A DNA stretch of 64,000 bases. Source: Pyramidobacter sp. C12-8. GTDB taxonomy: Bacteria; Synergistota; Synergistia; Synergistales; Dethiosulfovibrionaceae. Shown one piece after another: positions 55,630-64,000 of this stretch; the first letter of the stretch is position 1, and every line of letters starts with the position of its first letter. Location of the stretch: NCBI RefSeq assembly GCF_002007215.1, contig NZ_MUHX01000012.1, forward strand, positions 1 to 64,000, in the 5' to 3' direction. The notes under the pieces were generated by a model that was given only the letters and a program-made list of their open reading frames with translations, did no database searches and was not told the origin of the DNA. A program made the translations under genes and the position numbers.

Positions 55630-55645
55630 GGAAAGGAGAAAAACA

Positions 55646-56527
55646 ATGCTTTACAGCATGACAGGTTTTCATCGCGTCAGGCAAGACTTTCCATGGGGAA
55701 CCCTTGCCGTGGAACTTTTCAGCGTCAATTCCCGTTATCTGGAAATCGCCGTGCGTGCCGACCGGGAACTCTCGAGTTTTGAACCGCTGATCCAAAACGC
55801 CCTGCGCGGCCGTCTGGCGCGCGGCAAAGTCGTGGCGCGCGCGGAGATCAGATGGGCGCCGGCGCTGATGCGCGAACGCCTGAACGGCGACGTCCTGCGG
55901 GACTATTACCGGGAGATTCAGGAACTGCAGGGCGAGCTTGGCGGACCGGTGCCTGCGGTGACAAGTCTGTTCTGTCTGCCCGGCGTCACCGAGTCCTCTT
56001 CCCTGATGGACAAAACCTCCGGCGAAGTCCAGTCGGCGTTGTTCGAACTGCTGGATCAGTGTGCGGACGGCCTGATAAAAATGCGCGGGGTCGAAGGCGA
56101 AGCGCTTGAGCGCGATATCATGCAGAATCTCGAAGAGTACGACAGCCTTCTGGAAAAAATCGCCGCGCGGTGGCAGAGCATCTCGCCGCAGTTTTTCGAC
56201 GACTATCGCGCCAAGATCACGAAAACGATCGCGCAGCTCGGCTATGAGGCGGATCCCGCGCGTCTTGCCCAGGAACTCGTGATCCTGGCGGATAAGTGGG
56301 ACATCTCCGAAGAATTGACCCGTTCGTCCAGCCATACGTCCCAGTTCCGCACGCTTTTGAAAAGCGGCGGCCCGGTGGGACGCAAGCTGGATTTTCTGGT
56401 GCAGGAGATGAACCGGGAAATCAACACGATGGGCTCCAAGTCGGCCAGCACCGAGCTCCGCTGGCTTGTGGTGGACGGCAAAGCGCTGCTCGAACGCATC
56501 CGCGAGCAGATCCAGAACGTGGAGTAG
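55646..56527 (+). CDS. yicC: YicC-family endoribonuclease
   Basis: A 293-residue protein of the YicC/YloC family, recently linked to endoribonuclease activity. The N-terminus LYSMTGFHRVRQDF and the VNSRYLEI motif near residue 32 are the family signature, and the C-terminal FLVQEMNREINTMGSKSAS is the most conserved region. AAGGAG lies eight bases before the ATG. It begins the order yicC-remA-gmk-rpoZ-priA, the same as in B. subtilis except that coaBC is missing. Confidence 0.95.
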   Translation: MLYSMTGFHRVRQDFPWGTLAVELFSVNSRYLEIAVRADRELSSFEPLIQNALRGRLARGKVVARAEIRWAPALMRERLNGDVLRDYYREIQELQGELGGPVPAVTSLFCLPGVTESSSLMDKTSGEVQSALFELLDQCADGLIKMRGVEGEALERDIMQNLEEYDSLLEKIAARWQSISPQFFDDYRAKITKTIAQLGYEADPARLAQELVILADKWDISEELTRSSSHTSQFRTLLKSGGPVGRKLDFLVQEMNREINTMGSKSASTELRWLVVDGKALLERIREQIQNVE

Positions 56528-56530
56528 GCC

Positions 56531-56794
56531 ATGGCGCGAACGCTTGTGCATGTCGGCTTCGGCAATATGATCGTGGCCGAACGGATCGTGGCGATCATAC
56601 AACCCGCCTCTTCTCCCGTCAAAAGGCTCAAGGAAGAGGCGCGCGCGGCCGGACGTCTGATCGACGCCACGAAAGGGCGCAAAACAAGAGCGATCATCGT
56701 GACGGACAGCAACCACGTCCTGCTTTCGGCCATCCAGCCGGAAACCATCGTCAACCGTATTTCAGAAGGGGACAGCGCCGATGACGAAGAATAG
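56531..56794 (+). CDS. remA: RemA-like DNA-binding protein (DUF370)
   Basis: An 87-residue protein of the DUF370/RemA family. In B. subtilis RemA forms a ring that wraps DNA and activates biofilm-matrix genes. Here the core [17 protein letters not shown] and the arginine-rich [19 protein letters not shown] are kept. It starts three bases after yicC and overlaps gmk by 14 bases. The presence of the protein does not itself prove matrix control in this organism; the family is common upstream of gmk. Confidence 0.93.
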
Positions 56795-57356
56795 AAAGGG
56801 CACGCTGTTTGTCCTTTCCGGACCCAGCGGCGCCGGAAAAGGCACGATCCGTGCCAGAGTTTTCGAGGCGCTTGACGGATTGAGCTATTCCGTTTCCTGT
56901 ACCACCCGTGCTCCGCGCGAGGGAGAACGGGACGGCGTAGACTATCGTTTCATCACGCCGGACGACTTTGCGGCGCATATCGCGGCGGGAGACTTCCTGG
57001 AATGGGCCGACGTGCATCGTCACCGCTACGGAACTCTGAAAAGCGATGTGGAAAAAGTCTTGAACGAAGGCAAGGACATGTTTCTGGAGATCGATGTGCA
57101 GGGAGCGCTTCAGGTCAAGAAAAAAATGCCCGAAGCCGTGACTCTTTTCGTTGTGCCGCCGTCCATCGAAGTCCTTGAAGAACGTCTCAGAGGGCGGCAT
57201 ACCGAAGGCGAAGCCGAGCTGCGGCTTCGCCTTCGGAACGCCGTCGAAGAAATGAAACAGCGGGACCGCTACGATTTCGTGGTGGTCAACGATTCCCTGG
57301 ACGAAGCGGTGGAGCGCGTGTGCCGTTTCGTGGAGCAGCGCCGTCAGGCTCTTTAA
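56781..57356 (+). CDS. gmk: Guanylate kinase
   Basis: A 191-residue kinase converting GMP to GDP. The P-loop is [16 protein letters not shown] at residues 11-26, [19 protein letters not shown] near 35 binds GMP, and [13 protein letters not shown] near 72 follows. The length is slightly below the usual 200-210. It overlaps remA by 14 bases and is followed by rpoZ after 11 bases, with a new SD (AAGGAGAGG) just behind the stop. Confidence 0.96.
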
Positions 57357-57367
57357 GGAGAGGTAAA

Positions 57368-57700
57368 ATGAATTTTCATAATCTGGATAAAATTATGGAC
57401 AACGTGAACGTGCACAACAAGTATCTTCTCACGGCGGTCATCGCGCAGAGGGCGCGTCAGATCAGCGAAGTGAAGGGTGTCAACGGGATCCTTGAGAAAC
57501 ATCCCGGCGAAAAGGCGATCTCTTTGGCGCTGTGCGACATGGAAGATGGAAACGTCAGCGTACAGCTGCAGACCGAAACGATCCCCGACGCCATCGAGAA
57601 CGAGTTGGAGTCGGAAGCGGCGTTCGAAGAAGAACAGAAGAATCTGGAGCGCGCCGCGGAGAAAAAAAGTTCCGAAGCTGCCGACGGCCGTCGGAAATAA
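57368..57700 (+). CDS. rpoZ: RNA polymerase omega subunit
   Basis: A 110-residue small subunit that binds beta' and helps assemble RNA polymerase. The N-terminal MNFHNLDKIMD and LLTAVIAQRARQI (matching VxxRARQ of the family) are clear; the C-terminal half is acidic, rich in Glu, and longer than in E. coli. AAGGAGAGG precedes the ATG. Position between gmk and priA supports the call. Sequence identity to well-studied omega proteins is limited, so the assignment rests on the RARQ motif and synteny. Confidence 0.88.
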   Translation: MNFHNLDKIMDNVNVHNKYLLTAVIAQRARQISEVKGVNGILEKHPGEKAISLALCDMEDGNVSVQLQTETIPDAIENELESEAAFEEEQKNLERAAEKKSSEAADGRRK

Positions 57701-57721: not shown

Positions 57722-59509
57722 ATGCTTCAACTGCAGGTTTTGATCCCCGGGCCATGGTGGCATGAACTGACGTATCAAACAGACCGCGACGTGCCGCCCG
57801 GCGCGCGAGTGCTCGTTCCCATGGGACAAGGCGTCCGTGTCGGCCTTGCGGCGGGAAGGACGCAGTCCGCGGCGTCGATCCCGCTGAAAAACGTTCTGCG
57901 GGTCTTCGACGCGCAGCCGGTGCTGAACCGTCCTTATCTGCAGGCCGTACGTGAAATTGCCCGGGCCTTTTTGTGTTCGCCGTCGGAAATCCTGCGGCTG
58001 CTGATGCCGGCGTCGTTTTGGCGGGGAGAGCCCTTCGTGCCGTACGGAGAGAGCGAAAAAATCCCGTTCTCATTTGAATTCTGTTATCGTTACGACGCTG
58101 AAGAGCGCTGGCGGCTCTATCGCGAAAAGATCCTCGCCTGCCGTCGCGGCGTGCTGGCGCTCTTTCCGGAACGAGAGCAGGCGCAAAGATTTTACAAAAG
58201 TCTGGTCGGCGCGATCCCAAAGGACCGCCTGATCCTGTGGCCGGCGTCGGGCGCTCAGGCGGCGACGAAGAGCTGGCGCCGGGCCCTGTCCCGCGACGAC
58301 GCCGTGATCGTCGGCGGTCCGGGAGCGGCAGCTGCGCCGCTTGCCGCGCCGGAACTGTTCGTCGTCGACGAAGAAGCGAATCCATCCTGGCGCAGCAAAA
58401 AACGTCCGCCGTTCTCGCTGAAGAGCTTTGCCGCGGCCCGCGCCCGCGCCTCCGGCGGCTGTCTTGTCGTGGGGGGGCGGATCCCGTCGTCGCGGGTGTT
58501 CAAAAACTTCCGCCCGGCCGAGCGGAAAACGCCGGTGCGGGCTGTCGCGCGCATCCTTGACCTCCACGGCGCTTCGCTTCTTCCGTTCAGGGGAGTGCAG
58601 TTTCCGTTGCCTCTTTCCGACGTGCTTGTGACGGAAACGCTGCGGCATGCGGCCGACAAGCGCGTCGTTTTTTGGCTTCTGGACCGGCGCGGCGTGAGCG
58701 GCGAACTGCAGTGCGCCGATTGCGGCCAAACGGTGCAGTGCCCGCGTTGCGGCGCCGCCATGGTTTTTGAGCGGGACGAGATGCGCTGTCCTCTCTGCGG
58801 CGCCAGGGCGGGCGTTCCCGAAGTCTGTCCGCAGTGCGGCGGGCGGATGTTCCAGGGCACCTCTCCCGGTCTGGAAGCGCTTCGGCCGATGGCGCAGAAT
58901 CTTTTGGGCTCCAGTCCCGTGTGCCTGTGGCACGCCGAGAATCCTGCGAACCTGACCGACGGGCGCCGCCGGCTTGCCGAACTGAAGCAAAAAGGCGGGC
59001 TTTTGCTCGGCTCGCGGCGAGCGCTGAGCCTGCTTGACGAGCTGCATCCCGTTTTGATCGGCTGGCTGGACGCGGACGCCGAAGCTCGTCAGCCCGAATA
59101 TGCGTCGCGCTTTTCCGCGTTTTCCATGTTCGAGGAATCCCTGTGGCGGGGACAGGGGACGCGCACAGTCCTGTTTCAGACGCGCCGCCCCGGACAGGCG
59201 GTTCTCAAATCTCTTCAGGCCGGCTGGAGCTATTTCTGGCGGGAGGAATTGGCGGAAAGAAGCGCCTTCTCTTTTCCCCCCTATTCGCACATGGTCAGAA
59301 TGGAGCTGCCGAAAGGCTGGAAAGAGAAGGACGACTTTGTCTTCGGACTTGACGAAGCCGGTTTTACGACCATGCAGTCCGATGCGGCCGGCGCGGCGCT
59401 GACCGTTTTTACCGCGCGCATGGCGCCGTTGCGGCGTTATCTTGAAAAATATTTCACCATCCGGAGTTCCCGCCGAGGTTTCCCCAGCGTCGAAGTTTGC
59501 TCGGACTGA
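57722..59509 (+). CDS. priA: PriA-like protein lacking the helicase ATP site
   Basis: A 595-residue protein at the usual priA position (gmk-rpoZ-priA). The N-terminal DNA-binding domain (ELTYQTDRDVPPGARVLVPMG) and C-terminal domain match PriA. The zinc module is intact, with four Cys-x2-Cys pairs near residues 331-375 (CADCG, CPRCG, CPLCG, CPQCG). The Walker A GxTGSGKTE is absent: the segment near residues 120-145 reads instead FCYRYDAEERWRLYREKI. Walker B DEEH is DEEA (VVDEEANPSW). It is about 130 residues shorter than normal PriA. It should bind forks and recruit partners but not unwind DNA. Actinobacterial PriA shows the same loss. The SD is weak. Confidence 0.88.
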   Translation: MLQLQVLIPGPWWHELTYQTDRDVPPGARVLVPMGQGVRVGLAAGRTQSAASIPLKNVLRVFDAQPVLNRPYLQAVREIARAFLCSPSEILRLLMPASFWRGEPFVPYGESEKIPFSFEFCYRYDAEERWRLYREKILACRRGVLALFPEREQAQRFYKSLVGAIPKDRLILWPASGAQAATKSWRRALSRDDAVIVGGPGAAAAPLAAPELFVVDEEANPSWRSKKRPPFSLKSFAAARARASGGCLVVGGRIPSSRVFKNFRPAERKTPVRAVARILDLHGASLLPFRGVQFPLPLSDVLVTETLRHAADKRVVFWLLDRRGVSGELQCADCGQTVQCPRCGAAMVFERDEMRCPLCGARAGVPEVCPQCGGRMFQGTSPGLEALRPMAQNLLGSSPVCLWHAENPANLTDGRRRLAELKQKGGLLLGSRRALSLLDELHPVLIGWLDADAEARQPEYASRFSAFSMFEESLWRGQGTRTVLFQTRRPGQAVLKSLQAGWSYFWREELAERSAFSFPPYSHMVRMELPKGWKEKDDFVFGLDEAGFTTMQSDAAGAALTVFTARMAPLRRYLEKYFTIRSSRRGFPSVEVCSD

Positions 59510-59541: not shown

Positions 59542-60873
59542 ATGGCAATAGTGTCGATCGTCGGACGTCCCAACGTAGGGAAGTCATCGCTGTTCAACAG
59601 GATCATCGGCGAACGCCGGGCTATCGTCGACGATATGCCGGGCGTTACGCGCGACCGTTTGTATGGCTGCGTGCAATGGCAGGATAAAAGTTTTTACGTG
59701 GTCGATACCGGCGGTCTGCTGCTGAAAGACAAAGACCCGATCATGGAGAGCATGAAAGATCAGATATTCCAGGCCATCGAAGAGAGCGACGTCGTGATCT
59801 TCATGATCGACGGCAGTCAGGGCGTCACCTGGATGGACAAAGACGTGGCGCAGGTGCTTCGTTCTCATTCTTCGATGGTCATTCTCGCGGTCAATAAAAT
59901 AGACGACTTCAGTCACGAGGACGACGTCGTCGAAGCCTATTCGCTTGGCTTCGAAAAAGTCGTCGGGGTCAGCGCGCTTCATGACCGCGGCGTTGACGAG
60001 CTTTTGGACCAGATCGTGCAGATGCTGGGCGATAAAGGAGACGCGCAGGGAGCGGAAGAAGGCGTCATCAACGTGGCGCTCGTCGGCCGTCCCAACGTGG
60101 GCAAGTCGAGCATCCTCAACGCGCTGACGGGCAGCCGGCGGTCGCTGGTCAGCGACATCCCGGGAACGACCCGCGATTCGATCGACGCCGTGCTCGAGTA
60201 TAAGGGAGAACGCTTCCGCATTGTCGATACGGCCGGTCTGCGCCGCAAAAGCCGGGTCAAGGACGACATCGAGTTTTATTCGACGGTGCGGGCCATGGAC
60301 GCGGTCGACCAGTGCGACGTGGCCGTCTTCGTGATGGACGCGCGGGAACTGGCGACGGAGCAGGATCAGCGTCTGGTGGGGGAGATCCTCGCCCGCGGCA
60401 AGGGCGTCGTCCTCGTGGTCAACAAATGGGACTTGCTGTCGAACACGCCGGAGACCGGCGACGAAGTGAACGGGAAACTCCGCGAGGAGTTCCGCTTCGT
60501 CAGCCATGCGCCGGTGCTTTTTACGTCGGCCGTTTCCGGGCGCCGTCTGCACCGGCTGCTCGATCTGGTCAGCCGGGTGCACAAGCGCCGCCAATCCAGA
60601 TTCAGCACGACGGTATTGAACCGCATTATCCGCGACATGCTGGCTTTTGACCGTCTGCCGACGGACGGCACGGGACGCCGGCTGCGGATCTATTACTGCA
60701 CGCAGAGCGCCGCAGTACCGCCGACGTTCATCTTCTTCGTCAACGACACTTCGATCGTGACGAAGAGCTTTGAGAACCATCTGTCAAGAAAAATCCGCGA
60801 AGCGGGAGATTTTGCCGGCGTTCCGCTGCGTCTTTTTTGGCGTTCCAGCCATGGAAGCAACGAAAAGGCTTGA
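59542..60873 (+). CDS. der: Ribosome-assembly GTPase Der (EngA)
   Basis: A 443-residue protein with two tandem GTPase domains and a C-terminal KH-like domain, needed for assembly of the 50S subunit. G1 is GRPNVGKSSLFNRI at residues 8-21 and again GRPNVGKSSILNAL near 183; G3 is DTGG and DTAGLRRKSRVK; G4 is NKID and NKWD. Length is normal. GGAG lies seven bases before the ATG. It ends the housekeeping block, with a terminator-like stem at 60900. Confidence 0.97.
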   Translation: MAIVSIVGRPNVGKSSLFNRIIGERRAIVDDMPGVTRDRLYGCVQWQDKSFYVVDTGGLLLKDKDPIMESMKDQIFQAIEESDVVIFMIDGSQGVTWMDKDVAQVLRSHSSMVILAVNKIDDFSHEDDVVEAYSLGFEKVVGVSALHDRGVDELLDQIVQMLGDKGDAQGAEEGVINVALVGRPNVGKSSILNALTGSRRSLVSDIPGTTRDSIDAVLEYKGERFRIVDTAGLRRKSRVKDDIEFYSTVRAMDAVDQCDVAVFVMDARELATEQDQRLVGEILARGKGVVLVVNKWDLLSNTPETGDEVNGKLREEFRFVSHAPVLFTSAVSGRRLHRLLDLVSRVHKRRQSRFSTTVLNRIIRDMLAFDRLPTDGTGRRLRIYYCTQSAAVPPTFIFFVNDTSIVTKSFENHLSRKIREAGDFAGVPLRLFWRSSHGSNEKA

Positions 60874-61520: not shown

Positions 61521-62735
61521 ATGAAAAAGTTCGTTACGTCTCTGCTGGCTGCGGCGTTGTTTGCGGGGGCCGTGTCCGCCATGGCGGCGGAGTCGGCGAA
61601 GTTCCACATCGGCGTCTGCACGGGCACGGTTTCTCAGACCGAGGACGATCTTCGCGGCGCGGAAGAGCTGATCAAACGTTACGGCGACGTCGCCAACGGC
61701 GGCATGATCAAGCACATCACCTACCCCGACAACTTCATGACCGAGCAGGAAACGACGATCTCCCAGATCGCTTCGTTCGCCGACGATCCGCTGATGAAGG
61801 CCGTTATCGTCAACCAGGCCATCCCGGGCACGACCGAGGCGTTCCGCCGTATTCGCGAGACGCGCCCCGACATCCTGCTGTTTGCCGGGCAGAACCACGA
61901 GGATCCCGGCGTTATCTCTCCCACGTCCGACCTTGTCACTCACGCCGGAGATCTCGCCCGCGGCTATCTGATCATCCTCGCCGCCCACAAGCTGGGCTGC
62001 ACCGATTTCGTCCATATCTCCTTCCCCCGCCACATGAGCTATGAGCTTCTCTCCCGTCGCGCCAAGATCATGGAGGCCGCCTGCAACGACTTGGGCATGA
62101 AATACCATTTCGAAACGGCTCCCGATCCCACCAGCGACGTCGGCGTGGCCGGCGCGCAGCAGTTCATCCTCGAGAAAGTTCCGCATTGGATCGAGAAGTA
62201 CGGCCCGATGGCGGCTTTTTTCTGCACCAACGACGCGCATACCGAACCCCTGCTGAAGAGGATCGCCGAGGGGAAAGGCGGCTATTTCATCGAAGCGGAC
62301 ATGCCTTCGCCGCTGATGGGCTACCCCGGCGCGCTGGGCGTTGAACTTTCCGACGTGGCGGGCGATTTCCCCGCGATCCTCAAGCGAGTCGAGGACGCCG
62401 TGATCAAGGCGGGCGGTTCCGGACGCATGGGCACCTGGGCTTACTCTTACGGATTCACCAACACTTTGGCGCTGGGCGAGTACGCCAAGAGCTGCATCGA
62501 AAAGGACGTCACGCCGAAAAACTTCCGCCGCAACTTCAAGATGGACGCTCTTCTGAAAACTTTCGACGCGGAAACTCCCGGCGCAAGCTGGAACGGGACG
62601 ATCTACAAGGATGCGAGCACGGGCCTCGAGCTGAAGAACAACATCCTCGTCTATCAGGATACCTATATCTTTGGCAAGGGCTACCTCAACATGACCGGCG
62701 AGGTCATTCCCGAAAAATATCTCGACATGAAGTAA
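61521..62735 (+). CDS. DUF3798 exported protein, copy 1
   Basis: A 404-residue protein of the DUF3798 family. The signal peptide is residues 1-24 (KFVTSLLAAALFAGAVSAMA). The mature part looks like a periplasmic binding protein of the type I fold: alternating beta/alpha with FHIGVCTGTVSQTEDDLRGA at the start, VNQAIPGTTEAFRRI near residue 100, LLFAGQNHEDPG and FCTNDAHTEPLLKRI. The ligand is unknown. The ATG is preceded by GGAGGAG. The gene is followed by a terminator and then a near-identical second copy. The family is common in Synergistota and some fusobacteria. No permease gene is inside the window. Confidence 0.9.
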   Translation: MKKFVTSLLAAALFAGAVSAMAAESAKFHIGVCTGTVSQTEDDLRGAEELIKRYGDVANGGMIKHITYPDNFMTEQETTISQIASFADDPLMKAVIVNQAIPGTTEAFRRIRETRPDILLFAGQNHEDPGVISPTSDLVTHAGDLARGYLIILAAHKLGCTDFVHISFPRHMSYELLSRRAKIMEAACNDLGMKYHFETAPDPTSDVGVAGAQQFILEKVPHWIEKYGPMAAFFCTNDAHTEPLLKRIAEGKGGYFIEADMPSPLMGYPGALGVELSDVAGDFPAILKRVEDAVIKAGGSGRMGTWAYSYGFTNTLALGEYAKSCIEKDVTPKNFRRNFKMDALLKTFDAETPGASWNGTIYKDASTGLELKNNILVYQDTYIFGKGYLNMTGEVIPEKYLDMK

Positions 62736-63165: not shown

Positions 63166-64000
63166 ATGAAAAAGTTTGTTGTTGGTCTGCTGACCGCGGC
63201 GTTGTTTGCGGGGGCCGTGTCCGCCATGGCGGCGGAGCCGGCGAAGTTTCACATCGGCGTCTGCACGGGCACGGTTTCTCAGTCCGAGGACGATCTTCGC
63301 GGCGCGGAAGAGCTGATCAAACGTTACGGCGACGTCGCCAACGGCGGCATGATCAAGCACATCACCTACCCCGACAACTTCATGACCGAGCAGGAAACGA
63401 CGATCTCCCAGATCGCTTCGTTCGCCGACGATCCGCTGATGAAGGCCGTCATCGTCAACCAGGCTATCCCGGGCACGACCGAGGCGTTCCGCCGTATCCG
63501 CGAAGCCCGGCCCGACATCCTGCTGTTTGCCGGCGAGAACCACGAGGATCCCGGCGTCATCGCCCCTTCCGGGGATCTTATCATTCACTCCGACAGCATC
63601 GCCCGCGGCTATCTGATCATCCTCGCCGCTCACAAGCTGGGCTGCACCGATTTCGTCCATATCTCCTTCCCCCGTCACATGAGCTATGAGCTCATGTCTC
63701 GTCGCGCCAAGATCATGGAAGCCACGTGCAACGATTTGGGCATGAAATATCACTTCGAGAGCGCTCCCGATCCCACCAGCGACGTCGGCGTGGCCGGCGC
63801 GCAGCAGTTCATCCTCGAGCACGTTCCGCAGTGGCTTGACAAGTACGGCCCCAATACCGCGTTCTTCTGCACCAACGACGCCGAAACCGAGCCTCTGCTG
63901 AAGAGGATCGCCGAGAGCAAGGGTTTCTTCATCGAAGCCGATCTTCCTTCGCCGCTGATGGGTTATCCCGGCGCTCTGGGCGTCGAGCTTTCCGACGTGG
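63166..64000 (+). CDS. DUF3798 exported protein, copy 2 (cut by the window end)
   Basis: The first 278 codons of a second DUF3798 gene; it has no stop because the window ends. The start MKKFVVGLLTAALFAGAVSA is a signal peptide as in copy 1. For about the first 120 codons the two genes are nearly identical in bases (for example around 63221-63480 against 61578-61837), then differences grow (GENHEDPGVIAPSGDLIIH against GQNHEDPGVISPTSDLVTH). This suggests a recent tandem duplication with gene conversion or divergence in ligand-contact regions. TGGAGGGG precedes the ATG at 63166. Confidence 0.92.
   Translation, partial: MKKFVVGLLTAALFAGAVSAMAAEPAKFHIGVCTGTVSQSEDDLRGAEELIKRYGDVANGGMIKHITYPDNFMTEQETTISQIASFADDPLMKAVIVNQAIPGTTEAFRRIREARPDILLFAGENHEDPGVIAPSGDLIIHSDSIARGYLIILAAHKLGCTDFVHISFPRHMSYELMSRRAKIMEATCNDLGMKYHFESAPDPTSDVGVAGAQQFILEHVPQWLDKYGPNTAFFCTNDAETEPLLKRIAESKGFFIEADLPSPLMGYPGALGVELSDV

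Follow-up and report, generated by a model that had tools for sequence, protein, structure and literature searches.

A PriA orthologue that has lost its helicase motifs and winged-helix domain: a predicted pseudohelicase common to the sampled Synergistota

Results and discussion

Judging by every family sampled, replication restart throughout the phylum Synergistota seems to depend on a PriA that is unable to unwind DNA. PriA is the protein that restarts stalled DNA replication. The gene under study lies on the forward strand of the window, which is the whole 64,000-nucleotide stretch from Pyramidobacter sp. C12-8 that was analysed, and its open reading frame at 57722-59509 (+) encodes a PriA orthologue of 595 amino acids. 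As judged by alignment, motifs V and VI of this protein are destroyed and so is its ATP site, while the 3'BD, the zinc module and the two-lobe scaffold persist under purifying selection in the sole PriA of the genome. The best explanation, which is considered quite probable, is that PriA was inherited vertically, became a pseudohelicase before the sampled families split, and is now a fork platform for the loading of DnaB, most likely together with DciA. Motor and winged-helix domain would have been discarded with the fork-binding parts kept under selection, so that recognition and loading are separated from unwinding in nature. The features of the locus are as follows.

55640..57700, + strand: upstream cluster yicC-remA-gmk-rpoZ (Pfam; synteny across the phylum)
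57722..59509, + strand: priA orthologue, predicted pseudohelicase, 595 amino acids (open reading frame; PF17764 and PriA HMMs; AlphaFold2 model and Foldseek)
57734..58009, + strand: 3'BD, residues 5-96, retained (PF17764; column conservation)
58019..58069, + strand: junction lacking the winged-helix domain, about residues 120-195 in E. coli (alignment occupancy)
58091..58111, + strand: remnant of motif I (Walker A), YDAEERW for VTGSGKT, with R129 at the position of the catalytic lysine (alignment)
58367..58378, + strand: motif II, DEEA for DEEH (alignment)
58472..58489, + strand: remnant of motif III, GGRIPS for GSATPA/S (alignment)
58712..58837, + strand: cysteine-rich zinc module, 8/8 cysteines retained (sequence; 100% conserved in the phylum)
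59009..59035, + strand: remnant of motif V, GSRRALSLL for GTQMLAKGH, lysine and glycine lost (alignment)
59129..59155, + strand: remnant of motif VI, FEESLWRGQ for QVAGRAGR, second arginine lost (alignment)
59282..59506, + strand: C-terminal domain, shortened (alignment; fold well modelled)
59542..60873, + strand: der (engA), conserved downstream neighbour (Pfam; the priA-der pair is kept in deep family f11 too)

A single priA gene at a conserved locus

Residues 5-96 of the protein match the Pfam model for the PriA 3'BD (PF17764; 3.6e-13, 49.6 bits against a cut-off of 22.7). Matches to the NCBIfam PriA models span residues 135-572 and fall well below the curated equivalog cut-offs, with 134 bits against 230 for the PriA-helicase model TIGR00595 and 146 bits against 763 for the general PriA model NF004067. 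When PDB sequences were searched with phmmer, the protein matched PriA chains only. The marks of a PriA orthologue are all present: the 3'BD, an eight-cysteine zinc module in lobe 2, the fold and the gene neighbourhood. The order remA-gmk-rpoZ-priA-der was found in most of the loci compared across the phylum, and the priA-der pair is kept even in deep family f11; this conserved synteny speaks for the orthology of the window gene. Pfam identification of yicC, remA, gmk, rpoZ and der bears out the claim, made in a previous sequence-only reading of this DNA, that a true priA orthologue lies here at its conserved locus, and the lengths given there (about 595 against about 730 residues) agree with the 595 amino acids of the open reading frame and the 732 of E. 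coli PriA.

The same reading had held the gene to be the orthologue and not a spare copy. The window genome, which is 99% complete, contains a single match to the 3'BD and a single PriA-like protein, and with a canonical Bacillota PriA as query the window priA was the sole high-scoring match. The search of this genome for a second priA found none, and the idea of an intact second PriA was rejected for it, the remaining matches to TIGR00595 having been identified with NCBIfam as RecG, Mfd and UvrB. Elsewhere, two priA genes occur in genome G153, on separate contigs (L079 and L078, on C25 and C24); with contamination estimated at 9%, this genome is probably a mixed bin, and neither priA scores above the canonical PriA cut-off.

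Loss of the helicase motifs

A PriA helicase is expected to carry Walker A in the form GxTGSGKT together with DEEH or DEEQ, and the window protein has neither. In alignment with E. coli PriA, GVTGSGKT of motif I becomes RYDAEERW, with K230 replaced by R129, an equivalence that depends on alignment across an eroded and unrecognisable P-loop. Motif II reads DEEA at residues 216-219, just as had been stated earlier, and QVAGRAGR of motif VI becomes EESLWRGQ. The earlier statement that Walker A is absent also holds, since neither a strict pattern search nor the alignment revealed a displaced copy within the window protein. A looser pattern picked out GTGDQGKS in L005 and GNSGGGRT in L061 of the phylum; neither aligns to motif I, and both were rejected.

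The survey was extended to 188 genomes of the phylum, searched with TIGR00595. priA was matched in nearly all of them, and canonical PriA was found in none. Only four matches lay above the TIGR00595 cut-off (L038-L041); they belong to families f11 and f12, the two deepest, and they too are without Walker A. For closer comparison, an alignment was built of 93 PriA proteins of the phylum, drawn from 12 families, together with E. coli PriA and 80 canonical PriA that represent many phyla. Walker A is carried by all 80 of the canonical proteins, a set collected with motif II-region patterns and so biased toward canonical PriA, with Gly224, Thr226, Gly229, Lys230 and Thr231 invariant; because all 80 retain it, its loss from the phylum is not attributed to chance. 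An aligned Walker A occurs in 0/93 of the phylum proteins, all 12 families being affected. The P-loop glycines are lost, the column of the catalytic lysine (K230) holds arginine in 99% of phylum PriA, and the histidine of DEEH is in most cases replaced by Ser, Ala, Gly or Asn. E322 (motif II), Q597, R427 and the eight cysteines are retained.

Some of what is retained might suggest that PriA still binds or hydrolyses ATP in a remodelled pocket, given the 99% conservation of glutamate E218 in motif II and the retained Pro-Ser of motif III. Such a pocket would, however, be without glycine-rich loop or lysine; the lysine and glycine of motif V and the second arginine of motif VI are also gone from the phylum, and in E. 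coli the K230R change by itself abolishes ATPase activity (PMC4504706). Residual use of ATP is considered very improbable.

Several residues conserved in the phylum, namely W318, D321, W448, S473 and R476-G477, are not conserved in canonical PriA; they fall within or close to what were motifs IV, V and VI and are candidate members of a new surface that contacts protein or DNA. Conservation of phylum-specific residues reaches 99% for R129, 95% for W318, 92% for W448 and 94% for S473.

In a tree of 69 proteins, which was made by a quick method, is unrooted and has long branches, canonical PriA lies on one side of a branch with support 100, and f11 and f12 join nearest to it. This pattern is compatible with one loss on the phylum stem, which is the simplest history because the motifs are lost in every member sampled. 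Since the loss is common to the 12 families, including the deepest branches, it is probably older than all of them. The sequence-only reading had confined the loss to "this lineage", which proves too narrow; mapping it on an alignment and tree, as was proposed there, shows Walker A lost in 93/93 and fits a single event.

Retained and missing domains

Residues Y18, G27, R29, V30 and P33 of the 3'BD are conserved phylum-wide. All eight zinc cysteines (residues 331, 334, 340, 343, 356, 359, 369 and 372) remain, in agreement with the earlier account, and are 100% conserved in the phylum. The winged-helix domain expected of a PriA helicase (E. coli about 120-195) is absent from all the phylum PriA aligned: occupancy of its columns (E. 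coli 121-195) is 0.00-0.07 in the 93 Synergistota proteins against 0.67-0.90 in canonical PriA. Its loss accounts for most of the missing 135 or so residues and, as read from the alignment, is an addition to the earlier account, which gave the length difference only. The domain has been described as a contact to the parental duplex (PMC4752480), and losing it could have changed substrate choice or function. Several open frames for PriA in the phylum are 670-720 residues long (L031, L052-L055, L076 and L080 among them); their additional residues precede the aligned start or form inserts, and comprise no winged-helix domain.

Selection and predicted fold

Compared with two congeners (about 89-90% amino acid identity), priA has a dN/dS of 0.20-0.21 by the Nei-Gojobori method, and every domain is constrained; the corresponding values for its neighbours are 0.12-0.20 (yicC) and 0.11-0.12 (der). 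Signs of relaxed selection, which the sequence-only reading had named, in combination with a second intact priA, as something that would count against it, were not seen in any domain. An AlphaFold2 model built with 83 phylum sequences (mean pLDDT 93.7, pTM 0.91) has an intact PriA fold, and ranks 1-9 of a Foldseek search are all PriA chains. The best match is 8fak, the fork/PriB-bound E. coli PriA (TM 0.83, rmsd 4.9), with other PriA states clearly below it at TM 0.62-0.71. Going by this one predicted model, the window PriA may be locked in the fork-bound arrangement; AlphaFold2 may fix domains in one state for non-biological reasons.

These data bear on the idea that priA is a decaying pseudogene or an oddity of one genome, restart being done by something else. 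A genome of the same species (G048) does have a one-base frameshift in priA, but the change shortens a G7 homopolymer run to G6 in a two-contig assembly, as is typical of sequencing error. A dN/dS of about 0.2 across all domains, the near-universal priA matches in the phylum and the intact predicted fold likewise speak against decay, a reading that is largely refuted and to which hardly any weight is given. The deletion itself (L046, on contig C1 of G048) lies near gene base 750-756 and splits priA, otherwise 99% identical, into two frames; it is most likely an assembly error, the alternative being a slippage site.

Replication-restart partners and a proposed role for PriA

DciA (PF05258) was found in 160 of the 188 phylum genomes, including the window genome. 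PriC was found above cut-off in none of the 188, and DnaB_2/DnaD in one; this lone match (L108; G103, contig C131, 16090-16302) possibly belongs to a mobile element. A match to the RecG model is present in 188/188 and exceeds the RecG cut-off in 103, and RecG itself was confirmed in the window genome with NCBIfam.

PriA in these bacteria is proposed to act as follows. Through its 3'BD and zinc module it would bind the leading-strand 3' end where a fork has stalled or a D-loop has formed, and it would position DnaB as an ATP-independent platform. DciA would serve as the DnaB loader alongside PriA, and unwinding or fork remodelling, if needed, would fall to other enzymes such as RecG. The parts given to DciA and RecG are proposed because DciA is present in most genomes, DnaD and PriC are missing, and RecG-model matches occur in all. 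The assignment of partners also draws on Deinococcus radiodurans PriA, a protein that attaches to forks and to DnaB although it is without ATPase or helicase activity (PMC4504706), and on a proposed joint action of DciA and PriA (PMC9825169). Fork binding, contact with DnaB or DciA and a role in restart are thus putative properties of the window PriA, assigned by analogy. Because DciA occurs in most genomes, with DnaD and PriC missing, a minimal restart system of PriA, DciA and DnaB would be directly testable.

It could be argued instead that PriA has left replication restart for another function, for example structural or regulatory DNA binding. The winged-helix domain is lost, newly conserved residues (W318, W448 and ESxWRG) replace the motifs, and the PriA of the phylum sits on a long stem in the tree. 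The parts that read the fork, the 3'BD and zinc module, are nevertheless retained; the searches turned up neither another PriA nor a PriC that might have assumed restart; and the dead-motor Deinococcus PriA binds forks and DnaB nonetheless (PMC4504706). Such a change of function is judged unlikely, and a DnaB-loading fork platform is the reading preferred here.

Comparison with known PriA proteins

Canonical PriA of E. coli and K. pneumoniae (8fak, 6dgd, 4nl4) resembles the window protein in its 3'BD, two lobes, eight-cysteine module, C-terminal domain and fold, and differs in having a winged-helix domain, an ATP site and 732 rather than 595 amino acids. Laboratory versions of both losses exist, as E. 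coli priA300 (K230R) and as a winged-helix deletion of PriA (PDB 6dcr); these changes are separate and engineered, whereas in the Synergistota they are natural, combined and phylum-wide. The helicase of PriA has been described as well conserved even though E. coli can do without it (PMC4504706), which raises the question of what selection maintains it.

Actinobacterial PriA, noted as smaller and very divergent (PMC1193525), shares those features with the window protein. The best score with the actinobacterial models (PRK14873) is only 56.8 bits against a cut-off of 812, and because general models give 146 bits against at most 57 for these, the window PriA is probably not of the actinobacterial type. 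The sequence-only reading had suggested that the helicase-free state was reached "perhaps independently"; this gains support with respect to the actinobacterial proteins, and is less settled with respect to the Deinococcota.

A PriA without helicase activity has been established in Deinococcus-Thermus (PMC4504706), and the likeness is close: in both cases Walker A and B of the orthologue are dead, the catalytic lysine is changed to arginine, and the loss is fixed across a phylum. The Deinococcus-type substitution is matched in the window protein by R129, through an alignment that crosses the eroded loop. Deinococcus PriA is reported to match motifs I and II poorly, whereas erosion in the window PriA extends to motifs I, II, III, V and VI and its winged-helix domain is deleted; the activity of the former has been assayed, and the latter is known here from its sequence and a predicted model. 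Relative to the Deinococcus case, the present one adds another phylum, a loss that goes deeper, and deletion of the winged-helix domain. The text of PMC4504706 makes no mention of Synergistetes, and a literature search, whose coverage mostly left out subscription journals, found no description of Synergistota PriA.

With the lysine-to-arginine change in both Synergistota and Deinococcota, shared ancestry and convergence are both possible. The helicase might have been lost once in their common ancestor, the Synergistota later shedding the rest of the motifs and the winged-helix domain. Arginine in the K230 column of 99% of Synergistota proteins, and the same replacement at that position in Deinococcus-Thermus PriA (PMC4504706), would fit such a history. 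Against this, the substitution is a simple one, able to recur, and the P-loop around it is unrecognisable in Synergistota, so that the match depends on alignment. A single ancestral loss is on balance rather unlikely; it concerns history, and can hold alongside the proposed DnaB-loading platform. An extended form, in which the loss is ancient and common to both phyla and Synergistota PriA hands over DnaB through DciA independently of ATP and without a winged-helix domain, likewise has a fairly low probability. If true, it would mean that whole phyla use a streamlined restart system.

Beyond der, the window contains a DUF3798 gene (PF12683) at 61521-62735 and an apparent second, similar copy from about 63142 to the window end at 64000; read in antisense, the frames of these stretches are nearly the same.
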